The notes under the pieces are model-generated. The model saw nothing but the letters and a program-made list of their open reading frames with translations. It had not been told where the DNA came from and ran no database searches. DNA of 64,000 nt from Clavelina lepadiformis. Its lineage: Eukaryota; Chordata; Ascidiacea; Aplousobranchia; Clavelinidae. The translations under genes were made by a program, and so were the position numbers. Of this stretch, positions 6,575-60,800 are shown in pieces. Location: the NCBI RefSeq assembly GCF_947623445.1, contig NC_135243.1, positions 24,436,479-24,500,478 of the forward strand, read 5' to 3'. Every line of letters starts with the position of its first letter. Within the stretch, counting starts at the first letter, position 1.

Positions 6575-6614
6575 ATGATATAAGTGAGAAGTCTATTAAA
6601 TTGTCACCTATGTG

Positions 6615-7225: not shown

Positions 7226-7255
7226 ACACCCAACCTCAACCCGCTGTGTGTCGTC
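7226..7255 (+). pseudogene. Relic of ZP exon 19 (U1)
   Basis: Thirty bases after a conserved acceptor match the start of the U3 ZP exon at 37697. The sequence then jumps to unrelated intronic DNA, so the rest of this exon and all of ZP exon 20 have been deleted. U4 carries the same truncated exon near 50909. Confidence 0.75.
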
Positions 7256-7452
7256 ATTTATTGTTTATTGTTTATAAATGTTATCTTAACACTTTTACTG
7301 TTTGTTTTGTGCTGGGGACGAATTTATTGTTTATTATTTTCTTCATCTTGCCTTGTTAGGTGATATTCACATTTTTTGTCTCACTGGTGTATCAAGAATT
7401 CGATGTATGTTACGTCATAATGATCATTGTTAAATAACATTACATTTTGCAG

Positions 7453-20500: not shown

Positions 20501-20960
20501 CGTCAACTTGCCCAAACAACTGCAGAGGAAATGGGGTAAGTTGCAGCTGATTAACTTTGTACTTGTATTACCACAAGTGACGTCACTTTGCTGAAAATAA
20601 ACATCACCTGCTAGTAAATTCCTATCATTGGTGTCGTATTCCGTGGTGGCACAGTAACACAAGAATTATAGTTAACACAATAATTTACAATATATTATTG
20701 AAAATTGAAAATTTTATTTGTACAGTAACGATAAATTAATAATAATTCAGTCGTTAGTTGATCATTTACAGGTTTAAGGTTATGGGCAATGTGGTTGCTG
20801 CACAGACTTGAAACATTAAGTCGTACGTTAACCTTTTAACACTAATCTTTCATAGATCTGCAACGACAACGGAAACTGTCACTGCTCTGATGGCTTTGCT
20901 CCTCCAGACTGCTCCGCTCCTGGTGGTGGGGGAAGCGTTGATAGCGGGCCACTTTCCTGA
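14539..20960 (+). CDS. U2 ADAM-family metalloprotease-disintegrin with RGD loop, 726 aa
   Basis: Exons: 14539-14647, 14808-14899, 15549-15698, 15997-16082, 16261-16439, 16546-16640, 17056-17214, 17623-17820, 17977-18143, 18286-18480, 18744-18909, 19170-19284, 19434-19545, 19739-19925, 20470-20535, 20856-20960; open throughout (2,181 nt). The domain order matches U1: signal peptide, prodomain, RNKR furin-like site, [12 protein letters not shown] catalytic site, disintegrin, cysteine-rich, EGF-like, stop after VDSGPLS. The disintegrin loop reads [14 protein letters not shown], with an RGD at 18862-18870 where the other units have CGD. RGD at this position is the integrin-binding motif of human ADAM15 and of many snake disintegrins. 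The acceptor of exon 13 is weakened (gttcaag instead of taacgcag) but keeps its AG. With no transmembrane segment, a secreted protein is predicted. Confidence 0.92.
18862..18870 (+). other. RGD codons in the U2 disintegrin loop
   Basis: CGT GGT GAT encodes Arg-Gly-Asp within [15 protein letters not shown]1, U3, U4 and U5 have TGT GGT GAT (Cys-Gly-Asp), so one T/C difference separates the two forms. The surrounding loop framework (CR...CDLPEYC) is the conserved ADAM disintegrin loop, so the motif is in the integrin-contact position. Confidence 0.95.
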
Positions 20961-21000
20961 ATGATATAAGTGAGATGCCTATTAAATGGTCACCTATGTG

Positions 21001-21780
21001 CAGAGGTGGAAAGTCGGTACGTTAAAAGTATCGGTAGAGGTACTTGGCAAAAAATGTACCGACCGTCGCGGTATTCGCTACTGTTTCAAAGAAGTAGCTC
21101 GGTACTTTGCCGGTTCCCGGTACATTTTGTAAGCGGTTCCTGTTGCAAGTGCAATCTTTGCGTAATTATAGGGTCTAGTTCAGGGGTTCTTAACGTGTGG
21201 GTAATTACCCACTAGTGGGGAATTTGAGGATTTCAAGTGGGTAACGAAACACAATGTTAAATCTGGAATCAGATTTGCGTTGTGCAATCTCAAAAATAGA
21301 GCCTGACATTGACTCGATCGTCGATGAAAAGCAAGAACAAAAATCGCATTGACGTTGTTTGAAACTACGTAAACGTTCTTTAATGTTATTCTTCTCATTG
21401 AAATTGTTCTTTTTGTTAAATAGCATTGTGCTTTGGGATATGTCACACAGGTCACTAGGATTCATTTTGATTTTTCAGTCAGTTTTAAAAGTATGTGGGG
21501 AATATAGGTTTATTAAGTAGCGGAAGTGGGTAATGAAAAGAAAAAGGTTAAGAACCCCTGGTCTAGTTACAGGCTACTTCAGGTGAAAACATAAGTGATT
21601 TCACTCCTTGCGACTTTATTAGACGTTTGTAGATTACAACAAGAACAAAAAGCGTTAAAATTGGCCAATTTTAGATTAAATAATTTAAGGTTTAATTGAA
21701 ATGAAGTTTTTAAAAACATATTTCTCAAAACCTTGAAGTAATCATTTTAAAAGTGCTGATTACCGAAATTGAAACTTTGT
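21001..21780. mobile_element. Degenerate hAT-like GGTACC-rich element, interrupted by a MITE (U2)
   Basis: The same element as at 6615 in U1, beginning CAGAGGTGG and rich in cggtac motifs. It is split by the younger MITE at 21181-21560. The right end is not defined. It lies 40 bp after the ADAM stop codon. Confidence 0.45.
21181..21560. mobile_element. hAT-type MITE, 380 bp, private to U2
   Basis: Starts CAGGGGTTCTTAAC and ends GTTAAGAACCCCTG, near-perfect inverted termini. It is flanked by a perfect 8-bp target duplication, gtctagtt, at 21173-21180 and 21561-21568. U1, U3 and U4 show the uninterrupted site (gggtccaattaaagg). There is no transposase ORF. The termini resemble those of non-autonomous hAT elements of the Charlie type. 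It inserted into U2 after the units separated, inside the older GGTACC-rich element. Confidence 0.93.
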
Positions 21781-21787
21781 GGCTTAT

Positions 21788-21853
21788 TGATACGATATCT
21801 CGCAAAATTTGGTTCTTTATGGACCTGACGTACTTTACAACCCTCTTGTTGAT
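21788..21853 (+). pseudogene. Relic of ZP exon 18 (U2)
   Basis: Matches U3 exon 18 (37315-37408) from the YDISQ region to the donor, with substitutions and a lost 5' half. It is unspliceable as it stands because the acceptor side is missing. Confidence 0.7.
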
Positions 21854-22400
21854 GTAACTTTTAATTTGCTCGCGTGATTTCCTGGTGTTTTAGTGCTTTA
21901 AGCTCGTCCAGAATTGTAATTTTAGAGTTTTCCAAGGCATTTGATCAACTATTTTATATTTTAAATCAATGTATAATGATACAATCGCGTTATATTTTAT
22001 GAAAATTACGAAAATATTTGCTATCCACCGACTCTAGAATAATGCGTAAAATTTTTTTACTTGTCTCCGCCCAAACACCCAACCTCAACCCACTGTGTGT
22101 CGTCATTTATTGTTTATTGTTTATAAATGTATGTTAGATTAAGTATGTTGACGTTTAGTTGCTAACGACCGGTTAACGGTTACTGACAATGGGTTCGTGC
22201 AGTTTAGTTATTCAGATTTAACTAAATGTTAACTTCTCACTTTTACTGTTTGTTTTGTGCTGGGGAGGAATTTATTGTTTATTATCTTCTTCATCTTGCC
22301 TTGTTAGATGATATTCATATTTTTTGTCTCACTGGTGTATCAAGAATTCAAAGTATGTTACGTCATAATGATCATTGTTAAATAACATTACACTTTGCAG

Positions 22401-22832
22401 TTTGATCATCATCAGTGCAACAGATACCGCGACATTTTCAGTTGACCTTCTGCTTTTCGAGACGTCAATTTTGCTATTCCGATCATAGCGAACGACAATG
22501 ACGTCACAGTGAACACGCGAGTGTACGCGATATTTCGTCTCAACAACGCATATGAAGGTTTCTCTTCTCCATCTTTGAGTTTTGTCCCAACTTCTTCACA
22601 CGAGCGTTTGAAGACGAAGTCACTCAACGTTCTTTGGCAGCGCACTTTGGCAGCGACTGGTTTCGTCAATCTAGATATTTCTCTGATCTTTATCCTCAAT
22701 CCTGCAACAGCAATAAACGTCGTCGCCATGACGTCATGCAAATGGAAAAAAGCGCATTGGAAAGTGTCGTCATCATTTATGGACATTTTCGGCTCATCGG
22801 AAGATAACTTTTTTATAGAACTGTCAAGCTAA
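22401..22832 (+). pseudogene. ZP-domain relic: exon 21 fused to terminal exon (U2)
   Basis: Has the same deletion scar as U1 and U4, between exon 21 and the terminal exon. A missing base in the poly-T near 22455 shifts the frame, and a short duplication near 22641 (ctttggcagcg repeated) brings it back for the last part. The upstream exon 19 acceptor has changed from ccag to ccaa. Decay is further along here than in U1 or U4. Confidence 0.75.
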
Positions 22833-24490: not shown

Positions 24491-25959
24491 ATGGCCCAGG
24501 TGCGTAATATTGATGCATCTGACTTTACTGGCAAAGACCTACTCAAGTTCTTTGAAGCTAAAGTTGACGGAGATGAATGGGAAGCAGGAAATCATTTCAT
24601 TTTTATCGGTGGTCGATACCAAATAAAAATTGAAGCATATCCTGCACCAACCCAAAAGGGAAATGGAAGACTCTCTGTTGGAGGCCACGCTCACACGTGG
24701 GAGACGTTGGAGCCCACTTTGTCAGGTTCTAAGTTTAATAAAAAATATAAAACATTTTTGGAAAACGAACTTAATTCGCCACATGTGAAAGACTTCAAGG
24801 AAATGGAGTTCGAATGTTGTGCGCTGCTCTTGTTTGAGATCGCTCGAAGGGTTGAGAATGAGAGAGGGATCGATGTAAACTTTCTCACAAGAGATGAAGT
24901 GGACAAAGCGATCGACAAAGCGTTAAACTGTGAGTTGGGAAGCTCATTGACAGGAATATTTTGCGGCAACATAATGACAAGAAGAAGCAACTATGACGTA
25001 ATGATGAGCAGGTAAGGTTTATTTATTATTTCGATCTGTTTTAATTGAAAGTGACCGCGTGCTTTATTATTGGGTTGCGGAAATCTAAAAATAGCCCGAG
25101 TTTAAAAAAATTTGCGCTTTTGACTTCGTTTGTAAGAATGCGAGCCTGAGCCGAGTTGAGCCTAACCCGAACCCGAACCAGAACCCGAACGTTACCGACG
25201 TGAAATGGCAAAAAAGTGTAACACGTTGCAAGAATTTCAGGCTATAAAATGTCATAAATTTGATTGCGGAGATCGCAAAAACGTTACAATTTACTTCTGT
25301 TTTAGAACCCATAAAGTTTTGTTCTCAATGGTTTTAGACTTTGCAGCATGAAATTAAAGCTCAGTTTTCTGGAAAGTTGGACACGGTTCATTGTTTATTG
25401 AATAAAATTATTTTAAAGTTTAAACATATTCTAGTATAGGTTATATAGTACACAGTACATTACAATATATCATAATAATATATTGCATGTTATGAAGTGC
25501 TTTGCTTTGCAGATCAAATGCTGGCGATGACAGCGGTGACGGTAACGACAGTGGAGACGACATAGCAAGTGCAATGGGCAACTTGGCTTTAAACGACAGA
25601 GTTCGTGATGTTTGTTTATTTTTTAAAGCCTAAATCTCTCAACAACGTTTAAACATCTTTTGAACGAGCAGTAGGCCTAGATATATCTTTTTTGCTATGA
25701 GCACCGCCTTTATCACTGTCAGTAGCTTCTATTTTGTTTGGAGGTATTCTAAAGATGGAAACTGCGTGTTTGGTAAAAGCAATTTGCAATAACTACAAGG
25801 CCACAACTGCAAATAGATCGCAAAGTTTAAAACTCACAATATGTTTGTTGCGATGAATATCCATGTTTTTACTGATTGGATTTAAATGTGAATGATTTTG
25901 TTTTATTTTAGGTTATCTTGGGACCTGGAAACCTGCTGGCAAGAACAAATTCTTCATAA
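24491..25959 (+). CDS. U2 gene B, unknown 218-aa protein, 3 exons
   Basis: Exons: 24491-25011, 25513-25600, 25912-25959; GT-AG junctions in phase (657 nt). I do not recognise the family. The product has no signal peptide or membrane segment, so it is probably intracellular. The N-terminal half (about 1-85) looks beta-rich (FIFIGG, YQIKIEA). The central part (about 85-160) looks helical (FLENEL, LLFEIARRVENERG). A short acidic, Asp/Ser/Gly-rich segment follows in exon 2. The last exon encodes VILGPGNLLARTNSS. The start ATG is the first in frame and is shared with U1. The U2 and U4 proteins differ at many sites but keep the same length and exon phases, which argues that both are or recently were functional. 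The 3' UTR probably ends near 26560. Confidence 0.78.
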
Positions 25960-29097: not shown

Positions 29098-32000
29098 ATG
29101 ACTGAATCAATTCAGCTCGTCTGTTTTAGTCTCATCGCTTGTATTTTTCTACGATTGTCAGTACCGGTTGTCGGAGATCAGGAGTTTGAAGAAATTTTCA
29201 GTAAGTGTGAAAATAGAGATTAGACATAGACAAGTTACGACAAGCTCCGAGACTCTGCTTCTTCGAGCAGCTACAATGAAGTAATAATTAATTTAAAGGG
29301 ATAAGTTTTATGTCATCTTTAATTTCTAGACGAACGGAATTTGGGTTCTTTGCCAAATTTTGAGTTGGTTGAAATCGAACAAAAGATAAACGACAAATGG
29401 TCAAGCAATTTGAAAACTCAGGTAAGTTTATGTTTGTTTATGTTCTCGTGAACATTTCTAATACTAGCAGGGCTATTACCATGATGGTATCGTAGCTGAG
29501 CGATTAAATTTATTTACGGTATTCGGTAGACTAAAGGGCTTAGCTCGTAATGATGCTAACTGGGTTCGATACCGTGCATCGCTACCGTTGCACTGTAATT
29601 GGGAATTATTATATTATACCATACTTTAACATGATCACGAGAATTGTTTAAATGTCAATGTTTATAGGCTTTAACTATTTGCAGTAAATACCTGCAGAAC
29701 ATCAAAATAACCAATAAAATTTAGTTTGCCTTCCTACCATACTCTGCAGTTTGGACCCAGATTGGAAAGTTTGCTCTTTTGGTTTGGTTTGTTTTTGCTG
29801 AAAAGTCCCAGTGAAACAACATTAAACAACAGCCATTATTTATACTCGCAATTAATTTTATTTTCCTGTGCACTTGGCAAACTTTTCCAGTCTGGTTCAG
29901 GACTAGAGCGAGGTAGTGACTGCATCATTGTAAAATAACAAAGACCGATACCTCAGAACGTTCTCCTACTCTGTGTCATTGCTTGTAGTAGCACAGTTTG
30001 TAAAAGGTCTTTTATGTTTTTTATCCAACTTGTTAGACCCAGCCAGGCCTACACAAACACCAAGTCACATTTCACGCTTCGGAAAAATATTTGTTCAAAG
30101 ATCTTCAGCTAAATGTTGATGTGGTGGATAAGCATTTTTGTGTGACAGATCCAAATTCCGGGCAAGTTTTGTTTCCAAAGCCAGAGGTATTTTAGAAATC
30201 ACTAATTTTTTAATAATAATAAATTTAGATATAACCTATTTTAAAACATTTTTAATGTACGTTTCAACTATTTTAGAATGATGTTTAGCATTATTTTCTT
30301 AAAATCCAAGAAAATTGAGCTAGTTTAGCCAGAATAGAACCTGTGGAAGATGAACTGCCGATTGTTAATTAATTTCAACACAGACGGTTACCGACACTTT
30401 TTTTAAATTGTTTTATCAACTGAAGTTAATTTTGTTTAATTGTGATGTGACAATGACAGGTAATAATAATATCTTTTAAATGTAGGATTTGAATTTCCGC
30501 CAATATACCGGTTATGCCATTCATGGAAACAATGATGTCAGCAAAGCAATCGTTCGTACTGAACCTTTTAGGTATCTAATTTGTCATCATTTGAGTGTAT
30601 TGCTTGTCGCATTAAACTGCTCATCAAATTTACTCATATAAAGAATTCCACAGAGAGATTTCTTGAAAACCGCTAATACCAGTTTTTCTATTGGGTTAAA
30701 ATTTTAATTTGTGAAATTAATGACGGTTTCATGATGTCTATGTACACAGAGCTGACATATTCATGGATGGTGATATTGCCGTAATCCGGCCGGTTCTTTA
30801 CGACAATGGAACTCTTGGACACATCCTCTTCAAACTATCAGCTTTGAAGATTCCAGAAGGTGTCTGTGGAACCGACTTGTTGACCAACATCACCGGAAAT
30901 GAAAAGTTAAATTTTGGGATCAACACAGGTGTGAAATTTTTTCATGATTTGATTCGAACGTATGTGCCATAGTCACATATACACTGTCTCTTGTGATTGA
31001 TGTTTTGTAGCAGAATAACGTTTTTGTTATTCAGATTTTGATAGAATGGAGAGTGTTGGAAGAAAAAAACAAGACATTTCATCACAGACCCGATACATTC
31101 ATCTGCAATTTGTGTTTACCCAAAACTTTGTAAGTTTTCACACATTTTTGTCAAAGTCTTATTACAAACATTTTATCAGCGAACGCAGTGTTTGGGTTTG
31201 CAATGTTTGCGGACACATGATTCGGTCGTGTTTGAAACCCGTATTATGATTATAAACTTGTTACAATTTTTCGATCCCTACCCTGTGTCAAAACTCAGTT
31301 CCTCACCTGACAAATGTGATGAGGGTTTTGATTTTTATGCGGAGTTAGTGATGGTAGTGATGGTAACCTTAGTGATGGTAACCTTAGTGATGGTAACCTT
31401 AGTGATGGTAACCTTAGTGATGGTAACCTTAGTGATGGTAACCTTAGTGATGGTAACCTTAGTGATGGTAACCTTAGTGATGGTAACCTTAGTGATGGTA
31501 ACCTTAGTGATGGTAACCTTAGTGATGGTAACCTTAGTGATGGTAGTGATGGTACTTACCGACCCAAATCAGCAAAGTTTGTGCCATCAACGTATGATGA
31601 TATATTTTAAATAAGCAATTTTTTCCCTTTTAACTTGAAACCTTTTTAACATGAACAGTTGTATTGAATATTTTTTGTTGAAACTGTAAACTGACCGAAA
31701 GAAAACTCTAAAATTGTTTGTTATTTTTTCGTATGTTACAGAATTTCCTTCCAGATGCAGCCGTTTTGAACGCGGTCTTTTATTTTACGAACTACATGGA
31801 CACCTTATTTCAACCATTGGGCATTCGTACGGTTGTCGGTAACGTTGAGAACTGGGAGTCGGGAGATCAAGTCTTTGTCAACGAAGAAGATCTTTTACAG
31901 GTCTGTGCTATCATATTCCATAAACTTGCTTTTAGCAAAGTTGTTCCTAGGAACCGGATGTCCGTCTGTCCGTCCGTCCGTCCCTGGATTTGTTTCAGAG

Positions 32001-35000
32001 GGCCGGAGAGCAAGATCGTTTGTTTCATGGGCACTGGAAAGTTTTTTGAATGTTTTTTAAAATAACAGTAATTTAACAATTAAAGTTTATTTAATTAACT
32101 GTAATTTGACTTTGTCGTTATGTCAAATGTTGCTGTGCACCTCACTACACTGCATTATTGTCATTGTAGTTTGTTACAGTTCAGTAATATCATTTTCCAT
32201 AATAGTTTTAAAAGAATCAAGACTTAAAAGATAAATAAATCTTTTGCAGACGTTTGTGGACATGACTCGCTACAGATCGATTCGTGTCGCCGTTGACCCT
32301 CCCACGTCGCCTTGGGTTCAATCCGACCACACCATTTACCTCCGTCAGGGAGGGTTGGGTCTTTTGCGGGAATTAAACTCAACGAACGTTCTCGGGATAG
32401 CCCACATTGCTGCAATGTGTCAACCAGAATCTATCACCTATTCCTCAGTGAGTTTCATCTTATACCGTGAGCTTTGCTCTCATATCACGAACTTCGTTTG
32501 TTACTGTTAGTTAGTTGGCGATGTCATTGTGGAAAATATACTTTAATAAACTTTTATTTTTGAAATTTATACTTCAAAAGTTTCACATTTTTTGAACTTG
32601 CAGATTTATACATTGAACAACAGCCTCGCTTTCACCCCTCAAGTTTTAACCCACGAGGTTGGCCACAGTCTCGGCTTACGTCATGATGATAATGACCCCA
32701 ATCAACCTCAACCTGGTCCATGTTTATGTGAAGAAGGGGACAGAGACTGCATTATGTCTGCAAGGCTTCAGTGAGTCATAACGTTCAGTTAAGCGCAAGC
32801 CTAGAAATCGCAACTGAATCGGCAAATGCTTTGGACATCGAGATTAAGTTGCTTTAATTTGTATTCACTAAAATCATTGGAGATTTTATTAGAAATCTAT
32901 TTTGTATTCAGGAGCGATCGTCCGTTCCCTACAGAGTGGTCCAATTGCAGCATCAAGCAACTTGAAATTGAACTTGAACTATCGACCGGGCATTGCCTCC
33001 TCGATAAGCCGGAGATCGCGTCGTTGATCCCTCGCTCGTCGTGTGGGAATAAGATTGTGGAGCTGGGAGAGGAATGTGACTGTGGTACGGTGGTGGAATG
33101 TACAAGGTACGTCTTTAATGTTTTTTACAGTTGCTCGTCTATGGACTGAACTGTTATTGTTTTCTCTTACAATTCAGTTTTATATAGAGGTTAAGTTACA
33201 AAACCTTCAATAAAATCATAAAAATGCAAAGATTGAAATTAGTTATTTCTCGTTGTGTTTTTTCCAGTCGATGAAGATGTTTGATGAGAATTAATATAAG
33301 ACCAACATTTTAGCATAACAGAGAATTTAAAACATTAAATTTTCTATTTTCTTGTGGAAACACTTAGTCGATGTTGCAACCCGGCAACTTGTTTGCTTTG
33401 GGATTTCGCGGAGTGCGATTCGGAGGCGTGCTGTCTCTCGCATAAGTGCAAGGTCGCCCCTCCCGGTACTCAATGCAGGGAATCTTGTGGTGATTGCGAT
33501 CTGCCAGAATACTGCGATGGACAGAACAAGTCTGTGAGTTGAAAAGCTGCAACAAAAATAAAATTGTCTGGAATCTATTTTAGTTCAATAATTTTAGTTT
33601 TTTAGTTTTTTAAGTGCTATTTAAATTAAATAGAAATCGTTTTGCTTTAATTTGGTTTTCTAATTCAAACACTAAATACAAATTCTTAAAGAAACTATTT
33701 AAGCTTTGAAATTTAATAATTTAAGTCATTGCTTAAATTGAGAAAAGAAACAGCAAAAAATGTGAAAATGACCAACAACTTTACATTATTCAGTGCCCAC
33801 CGAACCGCTTGGTAGAAGATGGTGGACTTTGTAATAACGGGACTAATCGGTGCAGTGGTGGGAGCTGTATTAGCCGTGATCGAATGTGCCAGATATCGTA
33901 TGGTCCAGGTTGATGAAAACTTCAATTGTTCATTTTCCATTTGATAATATTTTAACTATTGTGGTTAAAGTTTATTTGAGTTAAAGTTTCAATGATACCT
34001 TCATGCTGTTCAGTTGTTCTCAATATACTGAGAATTGATTAATACTGACAACAAAATCTTGTTTAACTCAGATTCAAGCTACGCACATTACTGCGATGTT
34101 TTGAATACACTGGGAATTGGTCCTGGCAACTGTGGGGTCAATTTCACTTCAACAACCTCACCGTATATTGCTTGTACATTGAGGTGAGATTTTATGACAT
34201 TCTCATCTGTTTCTTGTTGTTGGATGATGACAAAGTGTTGTAAAGATCAAATGGTTCCATTAATTTATAGTGTGCATTCAAATATATCACATGTATGCTC
34301 AGAGAACTTGGTTGGAAATCAGTATATTAAGTTTTTATTTATGCCAATCGTACGTTTCTTTTTGCTGCAGCAATATTGAATGTGGCAAATTCTACTGCGT
34401 CATCCCTTCATTTGTGCGAGGTCCCATCGATCGTGATTTTCGTTTCCTAACTCTTGTCACAAACGAGACTTGTGTGGTCTAAGTGCGTGACCCAGATATA
34501 GGATTTATCGACACAACCTACGTCAGCGAATGGATGGGTTGTGCTGGTAATTCAAAGGTAACTTTCTGCTAGTGACTATTTTAGATGTCAATCTTTTTAC
34601 AGCTTCATACAATATCGGATGTTGATTATGTCATCAATATTGGCTGTAACTTGCTACTATTCGAGAATCTTATCATATTAACAAAAATGTAATGTATATC
34701 ACAACGCTGATAATCATGAGTTGGAATGCATTCAAACAGAATTAGTTACGCAGCGGGGAGCGAGGCTAGTTTAGTAACTTCGTTGAAATTTTAATGGGAT
34801 GGTCCAGCCAGATTTAGACCCGAAAGCTGACCGGTTGTTGCATGTTTTGAATGATCGGCTTGTATCAGATTTTGAACCTGGCATTACTTCTGATTCTTGC
34901 CTTTGTTTTCTTTTACTTTTATCTTAGTAGACTTTGTTCTTAAATTGTCTCTATTGCATTTGCTTTATTGAAAGTTGTTGAACACCACCCCAAAACAACA

Positions 35001-38000
35001 TTCGATAACTTGCATGATCGCTTACAAAGCAGCCAACTTTATGACGAAATACTGATCATTGACCACATACTTTGTGGATGATGTAATGAGTTGGTAGTTT
35101 GTGATCAGTTGAAAACTTGCCTGACTTTCCAGATGTGCTAGAATAAGATTTGTGCCTGGATGAAAAGTTTTTTTACTTTTATTACCCATCCCTAAATTTT
35201 ACTGTGTCTTATACTTTGAAATGTTCGTGCAAAATTCCATATTGTTTAGACTTTAGAATAAGAAAGTTGTTTAGTGACATCATATGTCAACCATTTTTAA
35301 ATCGCCATTTGACAGATTCTGTTGTTTTACTTCATCATGTTACCCCATGTCGCTCGTTGAAGATAAACATGCTACAAGTGTACTGAGCAATCACTTGTAC
35401 TGTAGTGCCCCATGAAGACAAGAGATTAATGACACCGGTACATAAAATTGGAAGCAGAAAATTATTTGGTTGTATTTATATTTTGCCAGGTGTGCAGGAA
35501 TGCTGCTTGTGTTGATTTCACGTCAACTTGCCCAAACAACTGCAGTGGAAATGGGGTAAGTTGCAGCTGATTAACTTTGTACTTGTATTACCACAAGTGA
35601 CGTCACTTTGCTGAAAATAAACATCACCTGCTAGTAAATTCCTATCATTGGTGTCGTATTCCGTGATTGCACAGTAACACAATAATTTAGAATATATTAT
35701 TGAAAATATAAAATTTTATTTATACAGTTGCGATAAATTGATAATAATTCAGTCGTTAATCGATCATTTACAGGCTTAAGGTTATGGGCAATGTGGTTGC
35801 TGCACAGACTTGAAACTTTAAGTCATACGTTAACCGTTCAACACTAATCTTTCATAGATCTGCAACGACAACGGAAACTGTCACTGCTCCGATGGCTTTG
35901 CTCCTCCAGACTGCTCCGCTCCTGGTGGTGGGGGAAGCGTTGATAGCGGGCCACCCCCCCTGAATGATATAAGTGAGATGTCTATTAAATTGTCACCTAT
36001 GTGCAGAATTGGGCAGTCGTTACGTTAAAAGTACCGTCGGTAGCGGTACCAGTACTTGGCAAAAAATTTACCGACTGTTCCGGTATTCGGTACTGTATTA
36101 AAAACGTAACCCTGTAGTTTGCCGGTACCCGGTACATTTTGTACAGCAGATCCTGTTGCAAATGCAATCTTTGCCTAATTATTGGGTCCAATTAAAGGCC
36201 ACTTCAGGTCCAAAAGTATGTCACTCCACTCTGTGCGACTTGATTAGACATTAGTAGATTACAACAAGAACAAAAAGAGCCAAAATTGAGATTAAGGTTC
36301 AATTGAAATGAAAGTTTAAAAACATATTTTTCAAAACCTTGGAATAATCATTTTGAAAGTGTCAACCCGAACCGAGTTATATTCCTTGAATAAAATAATT
36401 CAGGACAGGGATTCGGTGCTTAGTACCGACGGTATCGATGCTACTGAAAAGTACCGTGGTACAGTGAGTCGATGGTATATTGCTGCCCATCTCTGCCAGT
36501 CAGTGAAATATTGCCCTTGCACGTGGTTTACGAAATTTAAATTGCGAATTTTTAACACTGCATTTTCGCAGTGAGATGTCTATGTGACTTTTAACCTAAA
36601 TTTATTCGATATTCTTCATTTGCACAACTGGTAAAAATTTGAAACGACAGATTTTTAATAAAAGTTACTCAAGCTCAGATACTTTAAAATGATTGAAATT
36701 TGTATTGGAAATGTTGAAATACTGAAACTTAAATGAAGCTTCGTTAGACACAATTAATTTTACTAGACTGTAGCCATATTGGGGCGAACGAGGCACTTGG
36801 CTCTGTAATTTTTGTGGAATTATGACAAAACAATTTAGTGCTAAACTACATATAACAACATACAAACCTGCGTACTTCAAACATTTGCTCATGTAAATAT
36901 TTTACCTTGTTTTGACTCCTTAGCTTCCTAAATCTATGATTGACAGTCTATGAATTGTCATCCTTTATAAATGCATGACATGCCCTGTTTTATATATTAG
37001 CATATTAAGTTTTGACTTGCTTGCTTGCTTGGATCTATCAATCACAATCTACGAACGTGCTATTTTACAAATGTCTGACACACAGGTTGCTTAGTGGTTA
37101 GTTCAATGCTTGTTACGATATTTTCACTTTTCTCAATTTAGATTGTCCTGCCGTGAACCCCATCAATCAATGGACTTCATTTGACGTTCTGGTGGAAGAC
37201 ATCAACCTGCAATATTCATGCGGACCACCTGCTGTCTGTGTGAGGTCAGAATTCTGTTTTGTGACATCAGCAGAGCTCTTTAGGGCAGGTTTATTTTTGT
37301 CATTCTTGTTTTAGATTTGAGCTGTGCCCATTTGTGGCGTCTGGATACGACATCTCGCAAGATTTGGTTCTTTATGGACCTGATGCACCTTACAACCCTC
37401 TTGTTGATGTAACTTAGATTTTGCTCGCGTTATTTCCTAGTATTTTAGTGCTTTAAGCTCGTCCATAATTGTAATTTTAGAGTTTTTCAAGGCATTTAAC
37501 TAAGTATTTTAGATATTTAGTATGAATATCGATATATATAATATATATAAAATAGTATGATATTTAGAATGATTTTTGATATGAAATCGATGTATAATCA
37601 TACATTCGCGTAATATTTTATGAAAATTATGAAAATATTTGCCATCCAACGACCCTGGAATAATTCGTAAAAGATTTTCTACTCGTCTCTGCCCAGACAC
37701 CCAACCTGAACCCGCTGTGCGTCGTCAAACCGGAACCATTCGTCGACGGGGAATCCCCTACGGGCAGCGCGACTTTGACCTTTGACCTGGAAAATTTATC
37801 TGACCCCGACTCGGCGATGTGCGGGAGCAGAGTTGAGGTACCCGCAGCTTATTGTGACGCATCAACGTTTTAATTATTACGTCATTATAGTTAGACGATG
37901 TAATATTATTGCGTCATTGTGAAGCGACGAATGAGAAACAAGCTGGATATTTTCTTCTTTGTTTTTGATGTGCTTTGTGGCAACAACGACTCATTTATTA

Positions 38001-40020
38001 CAAAACAACCGAACTCGATTTATCAATTGTAATTAAAACTGTCTTTGATTTCCAAAATAAACAAGCCTCAATCCAAGATTGTTGTCATCCACAGTGACAT
38101 CAAATAACTTTACGTTGTTTATTTTTCATCGATATCTTATAACCACCAGGAGACAGACACCACCATCTCATACACATACCGGCTTCAAACGTTGAGAGAA
38201 ATCCTCCCCGCCTCGAACAACGTCATAGTGAGGACGCGACGTGGGTTTGTGTTCGATTTCACATGCACTTACCATAAAAACCTCAGCGATACAGCTGTAC
38301 CGTTCAATCCCGAGGCTAAGTATGTTGGCGTTTGGTTGCTAACGACTAATTAACGATTACTGACAATGGGTTCGTACAGTTTAGTTATTCAGCTTTAACT
38401 AAATGTTAACTTAACACTTTTACTGTTTGTTTTGTGCTGGGGACGAATTTATTGTTTAATATCTTCTTCATCTTGCCTTGTTAGGTGATATTCACATTTT
38501 TTGTCTCACTGGTGTATCAAGAATTCGATGTATGTATGTTACGTCATAATGATCATTGTTAAATAACATTACATTTTGCAGTTTGATCATCATCAGTGCA
38601 ACAGATACCGCGACATTTTCGGTTGACCTTCTGCTTTTTCGAGACGTCAATTTTGCGATTCCGATCACAGCGAACGACCATGACGTCACAGTGAACACGC
38701 ACGTGTACGCGACACTTCGACTCAACAGGGCATATGAAGGTTTTCTCTTGAAGGTAATTCTAGAAATAGATTTGCTGATTGACGGCGACTATAAGCTAGC
38801 AATGTGGTCTGAAGAAAGTTGCAGTTCCAAGCTAAGCTATGCTAACTGTTTAGCAATTTCCACGGCTTACTTCTTGCTAACTGTTCAGCAATAAGCATGG
38901 CTTACTTCATGCTAACTGTTCAGCAATTAGCATGGCTTACTTCATTCTAACTTTTCAGCAATTAGCATAGCTTATTTCATGCTAACTGTTGAGCAATTAG
39001 CATGGCTTACTTCATTCTAACTTTTCAGCAATTAGCATGGCTTACTTCAGGCTAACTGTTCAGCAATTAGCATGGCTTACTTCATGCTAACTGTCCAGTA
39101 ATTAGCATGGCTTACTTCATGATAACTATTCAGCAATTAGCATAGCTTATTTCATGCTAACTGTTGAGCAGTACTGGTTATTTTTGAGAACTTCATCTTC
39201 AACTTCATCTTCAACTTAAGCTTTTAGCATAACTCATTGTTGGTTGGCGTGGTCTGCTTCATGTTAAGAAACTTAATCTGATCAGGAATATTTCTGCTTT
39301 AGGTGGAACGCTGCTGGATCACTCAGAACAATGAACCTTCTTCTTCGCCTTATTATGATGTCATAATAGACAGGTAGTACGCCATAGATCTTGTAACAAT
39401 CTCCATTAAACTTGCCTTTTCCTGTAGAAATGATTTCGTTTTAAAAATGCGCAAAATTATTTACTCACTGTGTGCAGTTGTCCCGCTGAAGACCCACTTG
39501 GTGAGGAGAATGCCACCGTCATAATCACTAATTGTGAGTCACAGAGCGTTCGTTTCTCATTTTTAACATTGTACTGGAGCAACGTAGCTTTGGCGAATCA
39601 GCACTTATATCTCTTCTGCCAATCAAGCGTCTGTAGAACTTGCGATTGCCCTGATGTGAGTATTGTCTTGGCCGGATAGTTGGTTTTCAATTTGTTGTAC
39701 AAACATAAGAATTGTTGTATGTTAACGCAAGCAAATGTAGTTGTAGTTGCTTAAGTTTTCTTAACTTCTTCGTCTTTGAGTTTGGTCCCAACTTCCTCAC
39801 ACGAGCGTTTAAAGACGAAGTCACTCAACGTTCTTTGGCAGCGATTGTTTTCGTCAATCTAAAGATTTCTCTGCTCTTTAGCCTCAGTCCTGCAACAGCA
39901 AAAAACGTCGTCGCCGTGACGTCATGCAAATGGAAAAAAGCGCATTGGAAAGTGATGTCATCACTTATGGACCTCTTCGGCTCATTGAAGGATGAATTTA
40001 TTATAGAACTGTCAAGCTAA
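29098..40020 (+). CDS. U3 ADAM-ZP fusion gene, 24 exons, with a premature stop in exon 14
   Basis: Exons 1-15: 29098-29200, 29330-29421, 30037-30186, 30486-30571, 30750-30928, 31035-31129, 31742-31900, 32250-32447, 32604-32770, 32912-33106, 33368-33533, 33794-33908, 34072-34183, 34371-34557, 35490-35555. Exon 16 (35858-35972) does not stop: a 7-C tract keeps the frame open to a phase-1 donor (gtgagatg) that fits the phase-1 acceptor at 37142. ZP exons: 37142-37244, 37315-37408, 37697-37837, 38150-38319, 38582-38753, 39303-39373, 39478-39655, and a less certain last exon 39781-40020. All phases agree (3,354 nt). However, TAA at 34480-34482 in exon 14 (CAA in U1, U2 and U4) would end the protein at 642 aa, after the disintegrin and part of the cysteine-rich region. 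The furin-like site is RKKQ instead of RNKR. The gene is probably a recently decayed allele or paralogue of an intact ADAM-ZP gene, unless readthrough, editing or another isoform bypasses the stop. Confidence 0.7.
31366..31545. repeat. 15-bp intronic minisatellite, 12 copies (U3 intron 6)
   Basis: Twelve perfect copies of accttagtgatggta between ADAM exons 6 and 7. They create an open frame of TLVMV repeats, but the array lies inside an intron in every unit. Confidence 0.97.
34480..34482 (+). other. Premature TAA stop in U3 exon 14
   Basis: The frame reads TGT GTG GTC TAA, where U1, U2 and U4 have TGT GTG GTC CAA. It is a C-to-T change shared with U5 (63265-63267), so it arose before the U3/U5 duplication. 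Confidence 0.9.
34735..34970. other. Insertion in intron 14, shared by U3 and U5
   Basis: About 235 bp between ADAM exons 14 and 15, present in U3 and U5 (near 63520-63755) but not in U1, U2 or U4. It includes a short open stretch beginning [14 protein letters not shown]. No terminal repeats or target duplication are evident. A transposon fragment is possible. A second U3/U5 insertion lies at about 35139-35310. Confidence 0.4.
36004..36495. mobile_element. hAT-like GGTACC-rich element with both ends (U3)
   Basis: The left end is CAGAATTGGGCAG and the right end, reversed, is CAGAGATGGGCAG, 11 of 13 matching. Flanking 8-mers (cctatgtg and ccagtcag) do not form a clear target duplication. In U3 it lies in the intron that joins the EGF-like exon to the ZP exons. 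Confidence 0.5.
37142..40020 (+). CDS. ZP (zona pellucida) domain exons of U3
   Basis: Eight exons (coordinates in the gene entry) encode a ZP module. The ZP-N part starts near [10 protein letters not shown] and has well-spaced cysteines, ending with [11 protein letters not shown], the usual C-x-Y end of ZP-N. The ZP-C part runs from [12 protein letters not shown] through VERCW and DSCPAED to a RFSFLTLYW strand, then [18 protein letters not shown] modules polymerise into extracellular filaments, as in egg coats, uromodulin and tectorins. The last exon (acceptor ctttgag at 39780) is uncertain; it is only moderately hydrophobic near its start and I see no clear transmembrane helix or furin site. 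A separate ZP gene starting at an unseen upstream promoter is an alternative to fusion with the ADAM exons. Confidence 0.82.
38840..39170. repeat. 35-bp minisatellite in a ZP intron (U3)
   Basis: About nine and a half copies of a 35-bp unit containing gctaactgttcagcaattag, with point variants, in the intron between ZP exons at 38582-38753 and 39303-39373. The units are adjacent, with no spacers. Confidence 0.93.
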
Positions 40021-40049: not shown

Positions 40050-40055
40050 AATAAA
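40050..40055 (+). terminator. AATAAA polyadenylation signal after the U3 ZP exon
   Basis: Canonical AATAAA 30 bp after the proposed ZP stop codon at 40018-40020. The same site is AATAAT in U1 and U4, where the ZP frame is a relic. Confidence 0.45.
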
Positions 40056-47300: not shown

Positions 47301-50257
47301 TGTAGTTTGCTACAGTTCAGTAAAATCATTTTCCATAATAGTTTTGAGGGAATCAAGACTTAAAAGATAAATAAATCTTTTGCAGACGTTTGTGGACATG
47401 ACTCGCTACAGATCGATTCGTGTCGCCGTTGACCCTCCCACGTCGCCTTGGGTAAAATCCGACCACGCCATTTACCTCCGTCAGGGAGGGTTGGGTCTTT
47501 TTCGGGAAGAAAACGTCACCAACATTGTTGGGATTGCCCACATTGCTGCAATGTGTCAACCAGAATCTATCACCTATTCCTCAGTGAGTTTCATCTTATC
47601 CCGTGAGCTTTGCTCTCATATCACGAACTTCGTTTGCTACTGTTAATTAGTTGGCGACGTCGTTGTGGAAAATATACTTTATTAAACTTTTATTTTTGAA
47701 ATTTATACTTCAAAAGTTTCACATTTTTTGAACTTGCAGATTTATGCGTTGAACAACAGTCTCGGTTTCACCCCTCAAGTTTTAACCCACGAAGTTGGCC
47801 ACAGTCTCGGCCTACGTCACGATGACAATGACCCAAACCAACCTCAACCTGGTCCATGTTTATGTGAAGAAGGGGACAGAGACTGCATTATGTTTGCAAG
47901 GCTTCGGTGAGTCTTAACGTTCAGTTAAGCGCAAGCTTTGAAATCGAAACTGAATCGGCAAATGCTGAGCATCGAGATTAATTTGCATTATTTTTTATTC
48001 ACTAAAATGAGTGGAGAGTTTATTGGAAATCTATTTCTTCTTCAGGAGCGATCGTCCGTTTCCTACAGAGTGGTCCAATTGCAGCATCAAGCAACTTAAA
48101 ATTGAACTTGAACTATCGACCGGGCATTGCCTCCTCGATAAGCCGGAGATCGCGTCGTTGATCCCTCGCTCGTCGTGTGGGAATAAGATTGTGGAGGTGG
48201 GAGAGGAATGTGACTGCGGTACGGTGCTGGAATGTACAAGGTACGTCTTTAATGTTTTTTCTAGTTTCTCGTCTATGGACTGAACTGTTATTTTTTTCTT
48301 ACAATTCAGTTTTATATAGAGGTTAAGTTACAAAGCTTTTAATAAAATCATACAAATGCAAAGATTGAAATTAGTTGCTTCTCGTTGTATTTTTTCGAGT
48401 CGATGAATATGTTTGATGATAATTAATTAATACAAGACCAACATTTTAGCAAAACAAAGAGTTTAAAACATTAAATTTTTTGTTTTCTTGTGGAAACACT
48501 TAGTCGATGTTGCAACCCGGCAGCTTGTTTGCTTTGGGACTTTGCGGAGTGCGATTCGGAGGCGTGCTGTCTCTCGCATCAGTGCAAGGTCGCCCCACCC
48601 GGTACTCAATGCAGGGAATCTTGTGGTGATTGCGATCTGCCAGAATACTGCAATGGACAGAACAAATCTGTGAGTTGAAAAGCTGCCACAAAAATAAAAT
48701 TTCCTGGAATCTATTTTTGTTTAATAATTTTAATTTTATAGTTTTTTTTAAAACATACTTTAAATATAAATCTTGTATAGAAATAGAAATCTTTTTGCTT
48801 AAATTTCATTTTCTAAGTTAGAAATAATTATTAGATTTAAATTCTTAAACAAACTATTTAGGCTTTGAATTTTAATAATTTAAGTCATTGCTTAAATTGA
48901 GAAAAGAAACAGCAAAAAATGTGAAAATGACCAACTACCTTTACAATTATTCAGTGCCCAGCGAACCGCTTGGTAGAAGATGGTGGACTTTGCAATAACG
49001 GGACTAATCGCTGCAGTGGCGGAATCTGCATTAGCCGTGATCGAATGTGCCAGTTATCGTATGGTCCAGGTTGATGAAAAACTTTCTATCATTTGTATTT
49101 TATTTAAAACATTTCCAACTGCAATATTGAGTTTAAGGCTCAATGATGTAATTACGCTGTTCAGTTGTTTTCACTATACTGAGAATTGATTAATACTAAC
49201 AACAAAATCTTGTTTAACGCAGATTCAAGCTACGCTCATTCCTGTGATGTTTTCAACACACTGGGAATTGGTCCTGGCAATTGTGGTCTCAATTTTACTT
49301 CAACAACCTCACCGTATATTGCTTGTACATTGAAGTGAGGTTTTATAACATTCTCACCTGTTTCTTGTTGTTGGATGATGACAAAGTGTTGCAAGGATCA
49401 AATGGTTCCATTAATTTCAAGTGTGCATGCAAATATATCACATGTATGCTCAGAGTTTAAGAGCTTGGTTGGAAATCAGTTTATTAAGTTTTTATTTATG
49501 TCAATTGTACGTTTCTTTTTGCTGTAGCAACATTGAATGTGGTAAATTCTACTGCGTCATCCCTTCATTTGTGCGAGGTCCCATCGATCGTGATTTGTTT
49601 TACCTAACTCCTGCAACAAACGAAACCTGTGTGGTCCAAGTGCGTAACCCAGATATAGGATTTATCGACACAACCTACGTCAGCCAATGGATGGGTTGTG
49701 CTGATAATTCAAAGGTAATTTTCTACTTGTGACTATTTTAGATGTCAATATTTTTACAGCTTCATACAATCGGATGTATTATTCCATGTTCGATTTTGGC
49801 TGTAACTTAGTAACAACTGCAGTGGAAATGGGGTAAGTTGCAGCTGATTAACTTTGTACTTGTATTACCACAAGTGACGTCACTTTGCTGAAAACAAACA
49901 TCACCTGCAAGTAAATTCCTATCATTGGTGTCATATTCCGTGGTTGCACAGTAACACAAGAGTTATAGTTAACACAATAGTTAAGAATATCTTATTGAAA
50001 ATATAAAATTTTATTTATACAGTAGCGATAAAATGATAATAATTCAGTCGTTAATCGATCATTTACAGGCTTAAGGTTATTAGCAATGTGGCTGCTGCAC
50101 AGACTTGAAACTTTAAGTCGTACGTTAACCGTTCAACACTAATCTTTCATAGATCTGCAACGACAACGGAAACTGTCACTGCTTCGATGGCTTTGCTCCT
50201 CCAGATTGCTTCTCTCCTGGTGGTGGAGGAAGTGTTGATAGCGGGCCACCCCCCTGA
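44323..50257 (+). CDS. U4 ADAM-family gene with exon 15 mostly deleted
   Basis: Exons: 44323-44425, 44555-44646, 45293-45442, 45740-45825, 46083-46261, 46368-46462, 46883-47041, 47386-47583, 47740-47906, 48046-48240, 48504-48669, 48955-49069, 49223-49334, 49528-49714, then 50153-50257. Domains, furin-like RNKR and [12 protein letters not shown] are as in U1; the Met-turn context is CIMFAR. Exon 15 is reduced to its last 21 bases (49812-49832), and the deletion also took most of intron 14. The remnant behind the new ttag would begin TAA. Because exon 15 is phase 0 on both sides, direct splicing of exon 14 to 16 keeps the frame and gives 702 aa with a shortened EGF-like region. Exon 10 and its flanks derive from a U2-like copy. 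Confidence 0.8.
49812..49832 (+). pseudogene. Remnant of ADAM exon 15 (U4)
   Basis: Only the last 21 of 66 bases survive, with the donor gtaagt. The loss removes three of the four cysteines of this EGF-type exon. Compared with U1, about 260 bp are missing, between 5869 and 6129 in U1 coordinates. Confidence 0.85.
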
Positions 50258-50297
50258 ATGATATAAGTGAGAAGTCTATTAAATTGTCACCTATGTG

Positions 50298-50670: not shown

Positions 50671-51135
50671 ATTTTTAATACTGCATTGTTAGCCTATGAA
50701 TGTACTGATTGACTGATAGTATTTTAGTGCTTTAAGCTCGTCCATAATTATAATTTTAGATTTTTTCAAGGCATTTAGTCAATTATTTTAATTTTATATC
50801 AATGTATAATCATATAGTCGCATTATATTTTATGAAAATTATGAAAATATTTGCTATTCAGCGACTCTAGAATAATGCATAAACGTTTTTCTACTCGTCT
50901 CTGCACAGACACCCAACCTCAACCCGCTGTGTGTCGTCATTTATTGTTTATTGTTTATAAATGTTATCTTAACACTTTTACTGTTTGTTTTGTGCCGGGG
51001 ACGAATTTATTGTTTATTATTTTCTTCATCTTGCCTTGTTAGGTGATATTCACATTTTTTGTCTCACTGGTGTATCAAGAATTCGATGTATGTTACGTCA
51101 TAATGATCATTGTTAAATAACATTACATTTTGCAG

Positions 51136-51559
51136 TTTGATCATCATCAGTGCAACAGATACCGCGACATTTTCGGTTGACTTTCTGCTTTTTCGAGACG
51201 TCAATTTTGCGATTTCGATCACAGCGAACGACAATGACGTCACAGTGAACACGCTTGTGTACGCGATATTTCGTCTGAACAACGCATATGAAGGTTTTCT
51301 CTTCTTCTCCGTCTTTGAGTTTTGTCCCAACTTCCTCACACGAGCGTTTGAAGACGAAGTTATTCAACGTTCTTTGGCAGCGACTGGTTTCGTCAATCTA
51401 AATATTTCTCTGCTCTTTAGCCTCAGTCCTGCAACAGCAAAAAACGTCGTCGCCGTGACGTCATGGAAATGGATAAAGGCGCACTGGAAAGTGACGTCAT
51501 CACTTATGGACCTCTTCGGCTCATCGGAAGATAACTTTCTTATAGAACTGTCAAGCTAA
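51136..51559 (+). pseudogene. ZP-domain relic: exon 21 fused to terminal exon (U4)
   Basis: Same structure and deletion scar as U1 7453-7876, with only a few substitutions and an open frame. A truncated exon 19 relic lies upstream near 50909. Confidence 0.7.
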
Positions 51560-53201: not shown

Positions 53202-54666
53202 ATGGTTCAGAAGCGTAAAATTGATGCATCTAAATTCACTGGCAAAGACCTACTCAAGTCCTTTAAAGCTAAAGTTGACGGAGATGAATGGGAAGCAAGA
53301 CCTCATTTCATTTTTAGCGGTGGTCGTTACCAAATAAAAATTGAAGCAAAACCTACCCCAAACCAAAAGGGAAATGGAAGACTCTTTGTTGGAGGCCAAG
53401 CTCACAGCTGGGAGACGTTGAAGCCCATTTTGTCAGATTCTAGTTTCAACGAAAAATATGAATTGTTTTTGGAAAACAAACTTAATTCGCCAATTGTGAA
53501 AGACTTCGAGAAAAGTGAGTTAGCTTGTTGTGCTGTGCTCTTGTTTGAGATCGCTCGAAGGGTTGAGAATGAGAGAGGGATCGATGAAACATTTCTCTCA
53601 AGAGATGAAGTGGACGAAGCGATCGACAAAGCGTTAAACTGTGGGTTGGGAAGCTCATTGACAGGAATATTCTGTCTCGGCAAACAGAGGAGAAGAAGCA
53701 GATATGACGAAATCATGAGCAGGTAAGGTTTATTTATTATTTCGATCTGTTTTGATTGAAAGTGACCGCGTGTTTTATTATTGGGTTGCGGAAATCCAAT
53801 AATATTTCAATATAAGAATTTACGCTTTTGACTTCGTTTGTAAGAATGCGAGCCCGAGCCGAGCTGAGCCGAACCCGAATCCGAAACCGAACGTTACCGA
53901 CGAGAAATGGCAAAAAAGTCCAGCACGTTGCAAACATTTCAGGCTAGAAAACGACATAAATTTGATTGCGGAGTTAAATCGCTTTAAAACATTACAATTT
54001 ACTTTTGATTGAAAACACATAAAGTTTTTTTCTAATGGTTTGAGACTTTGCAGCATGAAATTAAAGCCCAGTTTTCGGGAAAGTTGAACAAGCTTCATTG
54101 TTTATTGAGTAAAATTATTTTAAAGTTTAAACATATTCTAGTATAGGTTATATAGTACACAGTACATTACAATATATCATAATAATATATTGCATGTTAT
54201 GAAGTGCTTTGCTTTGCAGATCAAATGCTGGCGATGACAGCGATGACCGTAACGACAGTGGAGACGACATAGCAAGCGCAATGGGAAACTTAGCTTTAAA
54301 CGACAGAGTTCGTGATGTTTATTTATTTTGTAAAGCCTAAATCTCTCAACAACGTTTAAACATCTTTTGAACGAGCAGTAGGCCTAGATATATCTTTTTT
54401 GCTATGAGCACGGCCTTTATCACTGTCATTAGCTTCTATTTTGTTTGGAGGTATTCTAAAGATGGAAACTGCGTGTTTGGTAAAAGCAATTTGCAATAAC
54501 TACAAGGCCACAACTGCAAATAGATCGCAAAGTTTAAAACTCACAATATGTTTGTTGCGATGAATATGCATGTTTTTACTGATTGGATTTAAATGGGAAT
54601 GATTTTGTTTTATTTTAGGTTATCTTGGGACCTGGAAACCTGCTGGCAAGAACAAATTCTTCATAA
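53202..54666 (+). CDS. U4 gene B, unknown 218-aa protein, 3 exons
   Basis: Exons: 53202-53722, 54220-54307, 54619-54666; same phases and length as U2 (657 nt). Exon 1 encodes MVQKRKIDASKFTGKDLLK and onwards, and differs from U2 by many amino-acid changes spread along the exon, including GIFCLGKQRR in place of GIFCGNIMTRR. Exons 2 and 3 are almost identical to U2. No signal peptide or membrane segment is seen. Length is conserved despite sequence change, so the protein is probably real, but I cannot assign a function. Confidence 0.78.
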
Positions 54667-57804: not shown

Positions 57805-60800
57805 ATGACTGAATCAATTCAGCTCGTCTGTTTTAGTCTCATCGCTTGTATTTTTCTACGATTGTCAGTACCGGTTGTCGGAGATCAGGAGTTTGAAGAA
57901 ATTTTCAGTAAGTGTGAAAATAGAGATTAGACATAGACAAGTTACGACAAGCTCCGAGACTCTGCTTCTTCGAGCAGCTACAATGAAGTAATAATTAATT
58001 TAAAGGGATAAGTTTTATGTCATCTTTAATTTCTAGACGAACGGAATTTGGGTTCTTTGCCAAATTTTGAGTTGGTTGAAATCGAACAAAAGATAAACGA
58101 CAAATGGTCAAGCAATTTGAAAACTCAGGTAAGTTTATGTTTGTTTATGTTCTCGTGAACATTTCTAATACTAGCAGGGCTATTACCATGATGGTATCGT
58201 AGCTGAGCGATTAAATTTATTTACGGTATTCGGTAGACTAAAGGGCTTAGCTCGTAATGATGCTAACTGGGTTCGATATCGTGCAGTGCGACCGTTGCAC
58301 TGCAATTGGGAATTATTATATTATACCATACTTTAACATGATCACGAGAATTGTTTAAATGTCAATGTTTATAGGCTTTAACTATTTGCAGTAAATACCT
58401 GCAGAACATCAAAATAACCAATAAAATTTAGTTTGCCTTCGTACCATACTCTGCAGTTTGGACCCAGATTGGAAAGTTTGCTCTTTTGGTTTGGTTTGTT
58501 TTTGCTGAAAAGTCCCAGTGAAACAACATTAAACAACAGCCATTATTTATACTCGCAATTAATTTTATTTTCCTGTGCACTTGGCAAACTTTTCCAGTCT
58601 GGTTCAGGACTAGAGCGAGGTAGTGACTGCATCATTGTAAAATAACAAAGACCGATACCTCAGAACGTTCTCCTACTCTGTGTCATTGCTTGTAGTAGCA
58701 CAGTTTGTAAAAGGTCTTTTATGTTTTTTATCCAACTTGTTAGACCCAGCCAGGCCTACACAAACACCAAGTCACATTTCACGCTTCGGAAAAATATTTG
58801 TTCAAAGATCTTCAGCTAAATGTTGATGTGGTGGATAAGCATTTTTGTGTGACAGATCCAAATTCCGGGCAAGTTTTGTTTCCAAAGCCAGAGGTATTTT
58901 AGAAATCACTAATTTTTTAATAATAATAAATTTAGATATAACCTATTTTAAAACATTTTTAATGTACGTTTCAACTATTTTAGAATGATGTTTAGCATTA
59001 TTTTCTTAAAATCCAAGAAAATTGAGCTAGTTTAGCCAGAATAGAACCTGTGGAAGATGAACTGCCGATTGTTAATTAATTTCAACACAGACGGTTACCG
59101 ACACTTTTTTTAAATTGTTTTATCAACTGAAGTTAATTTTGTTTAATTGTGATGTGACAATGACAGGTAATAATAATATCTTTTAAATGTAGGATTTGAA
59201 TTTCCGCCAATATACCGGTTATGCCATTCATGGAAACAATGATGTCAGCAAAGCAATCGTTCGTACTGAACCTTTTAGGTATCTAATTTGTCATCATTTG
59301 AGTGTATTGCTTGTCGCATTAAACTGCTCATCAAATTTACTCATATAAAGAATTCCACAGAGAGATTTCTTGAAAACCGCTAATACCAGTTTTTCTATTG
59401 GGTTAAAATTTTAATTTGTGAAATTAATGACGGTTTCATGATGTCTATGTACACAGAGCTGACATATTCATGGATGGTGATATTGCCGTAATCCGGCCGG
59501 TTCTTTACGACAATGGAACTCTTGGACACATCCTCTTCAAACTATCAGCTTTGAAGATTCCAGAAGGTGTCTGTGGAACCGACTTGTTGACCAACATCAC
59601 CGGAAATGAAAAGTTAAATTTTGGGATCAACACAGGTGTGAAATTTTTTCATGATTTGATTCGAACGTATGTGCCATAGTCACATATACACTGTCTCTTG
59701 TGATTGATGTTTTGTAGCAGAATTAGGTTTTTGTTATTCAGATTTTGATAGAATGGAGAGTGTTGGAAGAAAAAAACAAGACATTTCATCACAGACCCGA
59801 TACATTCATCTGCAATTTGTGTTTACCCAAAACTTTGTAAGTTTTCACACATTTTTGTCAAAGTCTTATTACAAACATTTTATCAGCGAACGCAGTGTTT
59901 GGGTTTGCAATGTTTGCGGACACATGATTCGGTCGTGTTTGAAACCCGTATTATGATTATAAACTTGTTACAATTTTTCGATCCCTACCCTGTGTCAAAA
60001 CTCAGTTCCTCACCTGACAAATGTGATGAGGGTTTTGATTTTTATGCGGAGTTAGTGATGGTAGTGATGGTAACCTTAGTGATGGTAACCTTAGTGATGG
60101 TAACCTTAGTGATGGTAACCTTAGTGATGGTAACCTTAGTGATGGTAACCTTAGTGATGGTAACCTTAGTGATGGTAACCTTAGTGATGGTAACCTTAGT
60201 GATGGTAACCTTAGTGATGGTAACCTTAGTGATGGTAACCTTAGTGATGGTAACCTTAGTGATGGTAACCTTAGTGATGGTAACCTTAGTGATGGTAACC
60301 TTAGTGATGGTAACCTTAGTGATGGTAACCTTAGTGATGGTAGTGATGGTACTTACCGACCCAAATCAGCAAAGTTTGTGCCATCAACGTATGATGATAT
60401 ATTTTAAATAAGCAATTTTTTCCCTTTTAACTTGAAACCTTTTTAACATGAACAGTTGTATTGAATATTTTTTGTTGAAACTGTAAACTGACCGAAAGCA
60501 AACTCTAAAATTGTTTGTTATTTTTTCGTATGTTACAGAATTTCCTTCCAGATGCAGCCGTTTTGAACGCGGTCTTTTATTTTACGAACTACATGGACAC
60601 CTTATTTCAACCATTGGGCATTCGTACGGTTGTCGGTAACGTTGAGAACTGGAGGTCGGGAGATCAAGTCTTTGTCAACGAAGAAGATCTTTTACAGGTC
60701 TGTGCTATCATATTCCATAAACTTGCTTTTAGCAAAGTTGTTCCTAGGAACCGGATGTCCGTCCGTCCCTGGATTTGTTTCAGAGGGCCGGATAGCAAGA

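Follow-up and report, generated by a model that had tools for sequence, protein, structure and literature searches.

Structure and Organization of the ADAM Units

The 64,000-nt stretch of the Clavelina lepadiformis genome analysed here (hereinafter, the window) holds five tandem units, U1-U5, encoding ADAM-type metalloproteases, in the third of which the ADAM exons are followed in phase by exons for a zona pellucida (ZP) module. The coding features described lie on the forward (+) strand. The U3 model rebuilt from the sequence is composed of 24 exons (29098-39995), with 23/23 introns showing GT-AG boundaries and phases agreeing throughout; once spliced, it comprises 1076 codons, the terminal stop being counted. 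The 24-exon chain proposed in a preliminary description of the locus is thus borne out. Exons 1-14 (29098-34557) encode an N terminus that is signal-like by eye, a short propeptide, the reprolysin and disintegrin domains, and most of the cysteine-rich domain. The end of the latter, an EGF-like domain, and a linker are encoded by exons 15-16 (35490-35972), and exons 17-24 (37142-39995) encode the ZP module, a furin-type site (KKRRRR), and a short tail before the stop codon, with no transmembrane helix. A candidate poly(A) signal, AATAAA, is located 55 bases past this stop (40050-40055).

The boundary between the two parts lies between exon 16 (35858-35972), whose donor is in phase 1, and exon 17 (37142-37244), which carries on in the same phase. 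In the frame set by exon 16, exons 17-24 contain the terminal stop only, the other two frames being interrupted by 15 and 23 stops. Splice sites were scored by a leave-one-out procedure and compared with the other sites of U3: the two sites of the junction, with 7.3 for the donor of exon 16 and 10.7 for the acceptor of exon 17, fall within or above their range, which also includes low values for accepted donors (exon 12, -1.7; exon 19, 1.3) and acceptors (exon 11, -1.4; exon 20, 1.2). On these scores, the two sites look like real ones. The phase-1 join that had been proposed between them is confirmed by the phases, the junction scores, and the stop-free frame of exons 17-24. At the level of the gene, a meltrin-type ADAM is indeed joined to a ZP cassette, and a publicly available gene model, P0121 (see below), uses the same junction.

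Repeats are present in some of the introns. Intron 6 of U3 and U5 harbors a tandem array with a period of 15 bases (31340-31570 and 60040-60400), which is longer in U5, and repeats spaced 35 bases occupy part of U3 intron 21 (38839-39170).

Domain Composition of the U3 Product

The Pfam scan, performed on three pieces, identified in the ADAM part Reprolysin (PF01421, E = 1.9e-20), Disintegrin (PF00200, 1.3e-16), and ADAM_CR (PF08516, 6e-11), followed by EGF_2 (1.2e-5) in exons 15-16, and no thrombospondin repeat family was found at E up to 1. The zinc motif HExxHxxGxxHD can be read directly in the reprolysin domain of U3 and in that of the public protein P0001. Concerning the ZP module attributed to exons 17-24, the ZP-C domain is well supported (PF00100, E = 6e-19 across 135 residues), while the ZP-N match (PF23344, E = 3.8e-4) is sub-threshold, with 21.2 bits against a cut-off of 24.7, and covers only profile positions 45-100 of 101. 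For the ZP part, the solved structure nearest by sequence is that of uromodulin (E = 3.6e-10), followed by GP2 and TGF-beta receptor type 3; for the ADAM part, the nearest ones are those of snake-venom metalloproteinase-disintegrin proteins and ADAM22.

Exon 24 reads KKRRRRD, i.e., a furin-type site at which cleavage is only predicted, and then a hydrophobic patch, ITYGPLRLI; we take both to be processing motifs of the ZP family. Neither a C-terminal transmembrane segment nor a glycosylphosphatidylinositol anchor follows, exon 24 stopping two residues beyond the patch.

Interruption of the Reading Frame

According to the preliminary description, the frame of the ADAM exons stays open up to the ZP exons. 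An in-frame TAA had, however, been overlooked in U3 exon 14 (codon 643, 34480-34482), where it is the sole internal stop of the model. The same TAA is found in U5 exon 14 (63265-63267), and the codon at this position is CAA in U1, U2, and U4. Over the 6.4 kb that they share, the two long aligned pieces of U3 and U5 show an identity of 99.2-99.7% (98.0% if the length difference of an intron repeat is counted); their near-identity and the common TAA imply that the stop is either older than their duplication or was copied with it. Splice sites within exon 14 that might dodge the TAA while keeping the frame comprise five donors that precede it and a single acceptor beyond it, all judged weak by eye and set aside. 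Exons 12-14 account for 414 bases, in frame, and the joins 11-15, 11-16, and 12-17 would all preserve the reading frame.

In the other units, the frame is closed by a different lesion. Exon 16 is one base shorter in U1 (6470-6583), U2 (20856-20969), and U4 (50153-50266) than in U3, and the frame ends at a TGA, located after ...SGPPP in U1 and after ...SGPLS in U2, whereas in U4 it corresponds to the end of P0001. The difference lies in a short run, which is C7 in U3, C6 in U1 and U4, and CTTTCC in U2, so that it is the C7 run that keeps exon 16 open in U3. With the TAA in U3 and the TGA in U1, U2, and U4, the frame from ADAM to ZP is open in none of the four units that can be read as far as exon 16; U5 is cut by the end of the window at 64000 but bears the TAA. 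The proposal that this genome encodes one protease-disintegrin-ZP protein is consequently unsupported. In U4, most of exon 15 is also gone (49715-50152), and P0001 omits this exon.

ZP Relics in the Other Units

Remnants of the ZP exons are present downstream of three other ADAM copies. U1 (7226-7841) and U4 (50909-51524) retain the start of exon 19, exon 21, and exon 24; U2 (21776-22797) retains exon 18 for the most part, although interrupted by a stop in frame, the start of exon 19, exon 21 with a broken frame, and exon 24. These relics indicate that the ZP exons lay 3' of the ADAM exons in the common ancestor of the units. The idea that the fusion was the ancestral state stands, therefore, as far as the position of the exons is concerned, an ancestral open frame across exon 16 being no more than possible. 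A single open frame for the whole protein at some earlier time would be suggested, indirectly, by the in-phase junction and by the intactness of the ZP exons.

Deletions in U1 (7424-7876) and U4 (51107-51559) have fused the relic of exon 21 to the intron preceding exon 24, with a stop-to-stop frame of 150 amino acids. Moreover, in the BLAST comparison of the units, from which pieces shorter than 100 bases were excluded, U1, U2, and U4 share a segment of roughly 4 kb between genes that has no counterpart in U3. Its copies in U2 and U4 contain an open frame (24491-25012 and 53202-53723) starting with MAQVR/MVQKR, with no Pfam match; the U1 copy, near 9657, appears interrupted by eye.

Probable Constraint on the ADAM and ZP Exons

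The chance that the eight ZP exons would remain free of stops, frameshifts, and splice-site losses was estimated with a neutral simulation whose rates were derived from intron divergence, excluding intron alignments with a length difference >150 or an identity <0.8. The probability of intactness is about 0.005 if half of the intron divergence between U3 and U1 is assumed, and 0.003 with half of that between U3 and U2; under the trial rates, it was 0.0000, 0.0003, and 0.0053. These low values argue for the ZP exons having been under constraint until fairly recently.

As for the ADAM part (exons 2-14, without exon 1 and without the alignment column that holds the stop codon), dN/dS is 0.25-0.32 in nine of the ten pairs of units, and 0.56 for U3-U5, a value based on three differing sites only. 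The codons that are shared by U3 and U5 and differ from those common to U1, U2, and U4 comprise 18 synonymous and 20 replacement ones, the stop included, not polarised by an outgroup. From this split, it looks as if either the stop arose recently, or the truncated ADAM is still in use. Of the 20 replacement codons, six, again including the stop, fall within the 15 codons that end at the stop (34438-34482 in U3, 63223-63267 in U5).

Public Gene Models

The best match of the ADAM part is P0001 from C. lepadiformis, which coincides fully with the U4 model as spliced, lacking exon 15, up to the TGA; it ends at SGPPP in exon 16 without a transmembrane helix. A second model, P0121 (410 amino acids, annotated as "zona pellucida sperm-binding protein 4-like"), corresponds letter for letter to ATGACACCG followed by U3 exons 15-24. 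The first coding piece, ATGACACCG (35429-35437), is located 3' of the TAA, and its donor scores 3.6; the ATGACA...GTACAT pattern of this start occurs once in the window, in U3 only. The protein begins with MTPVCRNAAC, where no signal peptide is evident by eye. The public models are thus split into an ADAM that exon 16 closes and a ZP protein opening after the TAA, and we infer that the start of P0121 was placed so as to avoid the stop. This should serve as a warning for the use of the "ZP4-like" model, which includes exons of an ADAM and whose start lies beyond a stop codon.

In two relatives, P0002 and P0003, the motif GGS(L/V)DSGP is followed by a stretch that is hydrophobic by eye and by a long tail. 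The juxtamembrane motif of the present locus lies at the same place, so that the ZP cassette occupies the place where the membrane anchor is expected.

Search for a Separate ZP Start, a Membrane Anchor, and Other Fusions

A start site with a signal peptide directly 5' of the ZP exons, the observation that the preliminary description had set against a fused gene, was searched for by scanning U3 intron 16 for ATG exons >30 bases with a phase-1 GTR donor. Two candidates emerged, one of which is hydrophobic (36975-37056) and has a donor score of -1.3. This low score makes a separate ZP gene less likely but is not decisive, since the accepted exon 12 donor scores -1.7. No in-frame ATG was seen by eye immediately 5' of exon 17.

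Membrane anchors were sought in U1-U4 as phase-matched acceptors opening hydrophobic frames of at least 22 residues. None was found in U3 intron 16. Hydrophobic frames do occur elsewhere in U1-U4, the strongest being those at 7226 in U1 (KD 2.54) and at 50909 in U4 (KD 2.26). Both open at the acceptor of the relic exon 19, in the phase of the exon 16 donor, extend for 44 residues, and lie past the exon 16 TGA.

A match to the ZP region was found in none of the 2674 candidate proteins of 592-1883 amino acids at E up to 0.001, and in 1/1356 of those of 191-609 amino acids, i.e., P0121 itself. PF00100 is present in none of the 120 ADAM matches listed, out of 682. As a negative for other species, this is weak, since only proteins that have exact words in common with the query are within reach of the search. 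Likewise, no ADAM-ZP protein was met in the literature, as judged from titles and the opening of abstracts, most subscription journals being outside the coverage.

Comparison with Known Systems

The domain order of U3 is that of the meltrin-type ADAMs (ADAM9/12/15/19) through the motif GGSxDSGP, and ADAM15, ADAM19, and ADAM9 are among the top named matches listed. After this motif, however, the relatives P0002 and P0003 continue with their hydrophobic stretch and long tail, where the present locus has either ZP exons or a stop. The apparent lack of a membrane anchor in a reprolysin-disintegrin protein is shared with ADAMTS, from which U3 differs in having a ZP domain as its C-terminal module and no detectable thrombospondin repeat. 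An EGF domain followed by a ZP module is described, in the available part of PMC9265791, for uromodulin and for the ascidian egg-coat proteins HrVC120/HrVC70, HrVLP-1, and HrVLP-2. U3 resembles them in this arrangement, as well as in the match of its ZP part to uromodulin. Conversely, no metalloprotease is mentioned for these proteins in that part of the text, the EGF domain of U3 is that of the ADAM, and no transmembrane helix follows its ZP module. Lastly, P0121 coincides with U3 exons 15-24 from its fourth residue onwards, but has neither a protease nor a disintegrin domain.

Proposed Origin and Fate of the Fused Gene

The explanation that we favor, with a probability of roughly 0.55, is that U3 is a recently disabled chimeric gene, in which a ZP cassette replaced the membrane anchor of a meltrin-type ADAM. 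An ADAM of the ADAM9/12/15/19 group would have had its EGF exon spliced, past GGSVDSGP, to the ZP cassette rather than to a transmembrane exon. The fused product would have been secreted, and its ZP module, once cut at KKRRRR, would have been able to join a filament; the ZP filament subunit freed at the furin-type site would have carried a metalloprotease-disintegrin N-terminally. The array might then have decayed along two paths, one being the TAA in exon 14 (U3 and U5), the other an exon 16 shorter by one base, with the resulting TGA, plus the loss of ZP exons (U1, U2, and U4). The products of the latter units would be ADAMs without a membrane anchor; U3 and U5 would yield at most a truncated ADAM of 642 residues, the U3 transcript being a probable target of nonsense-mediated decay.

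Some observations weigh against this explanation. The units with relics lack an open frame across exon 16, so that an ancestral fused frame is conjectural, and the absence of a membrane anchor after the ZP module weakens the idea of filament polymerisation. The neutral simulation assumes equal rates and no gene conversion, and at a quarter of the U3-U1 divergence the probability of intact ZP exons rises to 0.07, which is not strong. The cluster of replacements next to the stop may reflect gene conversion or relaxed constraint. Purifying selection on the ADAM exons of U3 and U5 could also mean that the truncated ADAM is functional and the ZP part a bystander.

Among the alternatives, the existence of two neighboring genes, with an ancestral ADAM ending at the exon 16 TGA and a ZP gene that is either separate or was brought into frame later in U3 by the extra C, is possible but rather unlikely. 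The TGA in three of the four readable units, the division of the public models into ADAM and ZP proteins, and the hydrophobic ATG exon at 36975-37056, whose donor exceeds that accepted for exon 12, are all consistent with it. Yet, the public ZP model itself takes in ADAM exons 15-16 and the 16-17 junction, the scores of this junction surpass those of both the P0121 start piece and the candidate signal exon, and P0121 starts without an evident signal peptide. Still less likely is a fusion that is alive today, the TAA being either a minority allele that the sequenced haplotype happens to carry, or bypassed by the skipping of exons 12-14 to give a protease-disintegrin-EGF-ZP protein. The frame-preserving joins and the fact that the TAA is the only internal stop of U3 speak for it, but U5 bears the same stop, no match to the ZP region was found among the candidate proteins of 592-1883 amino acids, and the skip would delete much of the cysteine-rich domain. 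An error of sequencing or assembly affecting the TAA or the C7 run is, finally, very improbable: errors typically arise at sites such as C7/C6, and the near-identical U5 might conceivably represent a haplotypic duplicate of U3, but the TAA is a substitution found in two places, and the genome note (PMC10884593) reports, for the assembly from which the window presumably comes, 117-fold HiFi reads, a quality value (QV) of 67.4, and the removal of haplotypic duplications.

A further and doubtful possibility is that some Clavelina alleles or sister species carry a TAA-free gene, whose product would be a secreted protease-disintegrin-EGF-ZP filament subunit in the egg coat or the tunic, the array representing the birth and decay of a chimeric family in progress. 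If such a live version existed, a metalloprotease-disintegrin would sit within a polymerising matrix protein, fixing a shedding or matrix-cutting activity to the filament. Even if it is dead, the array suggests that exon shuffling at a phase-1 intron swapped the membrane anchor for a ZP module, and that the fused product was then lost twice, by different lesions.

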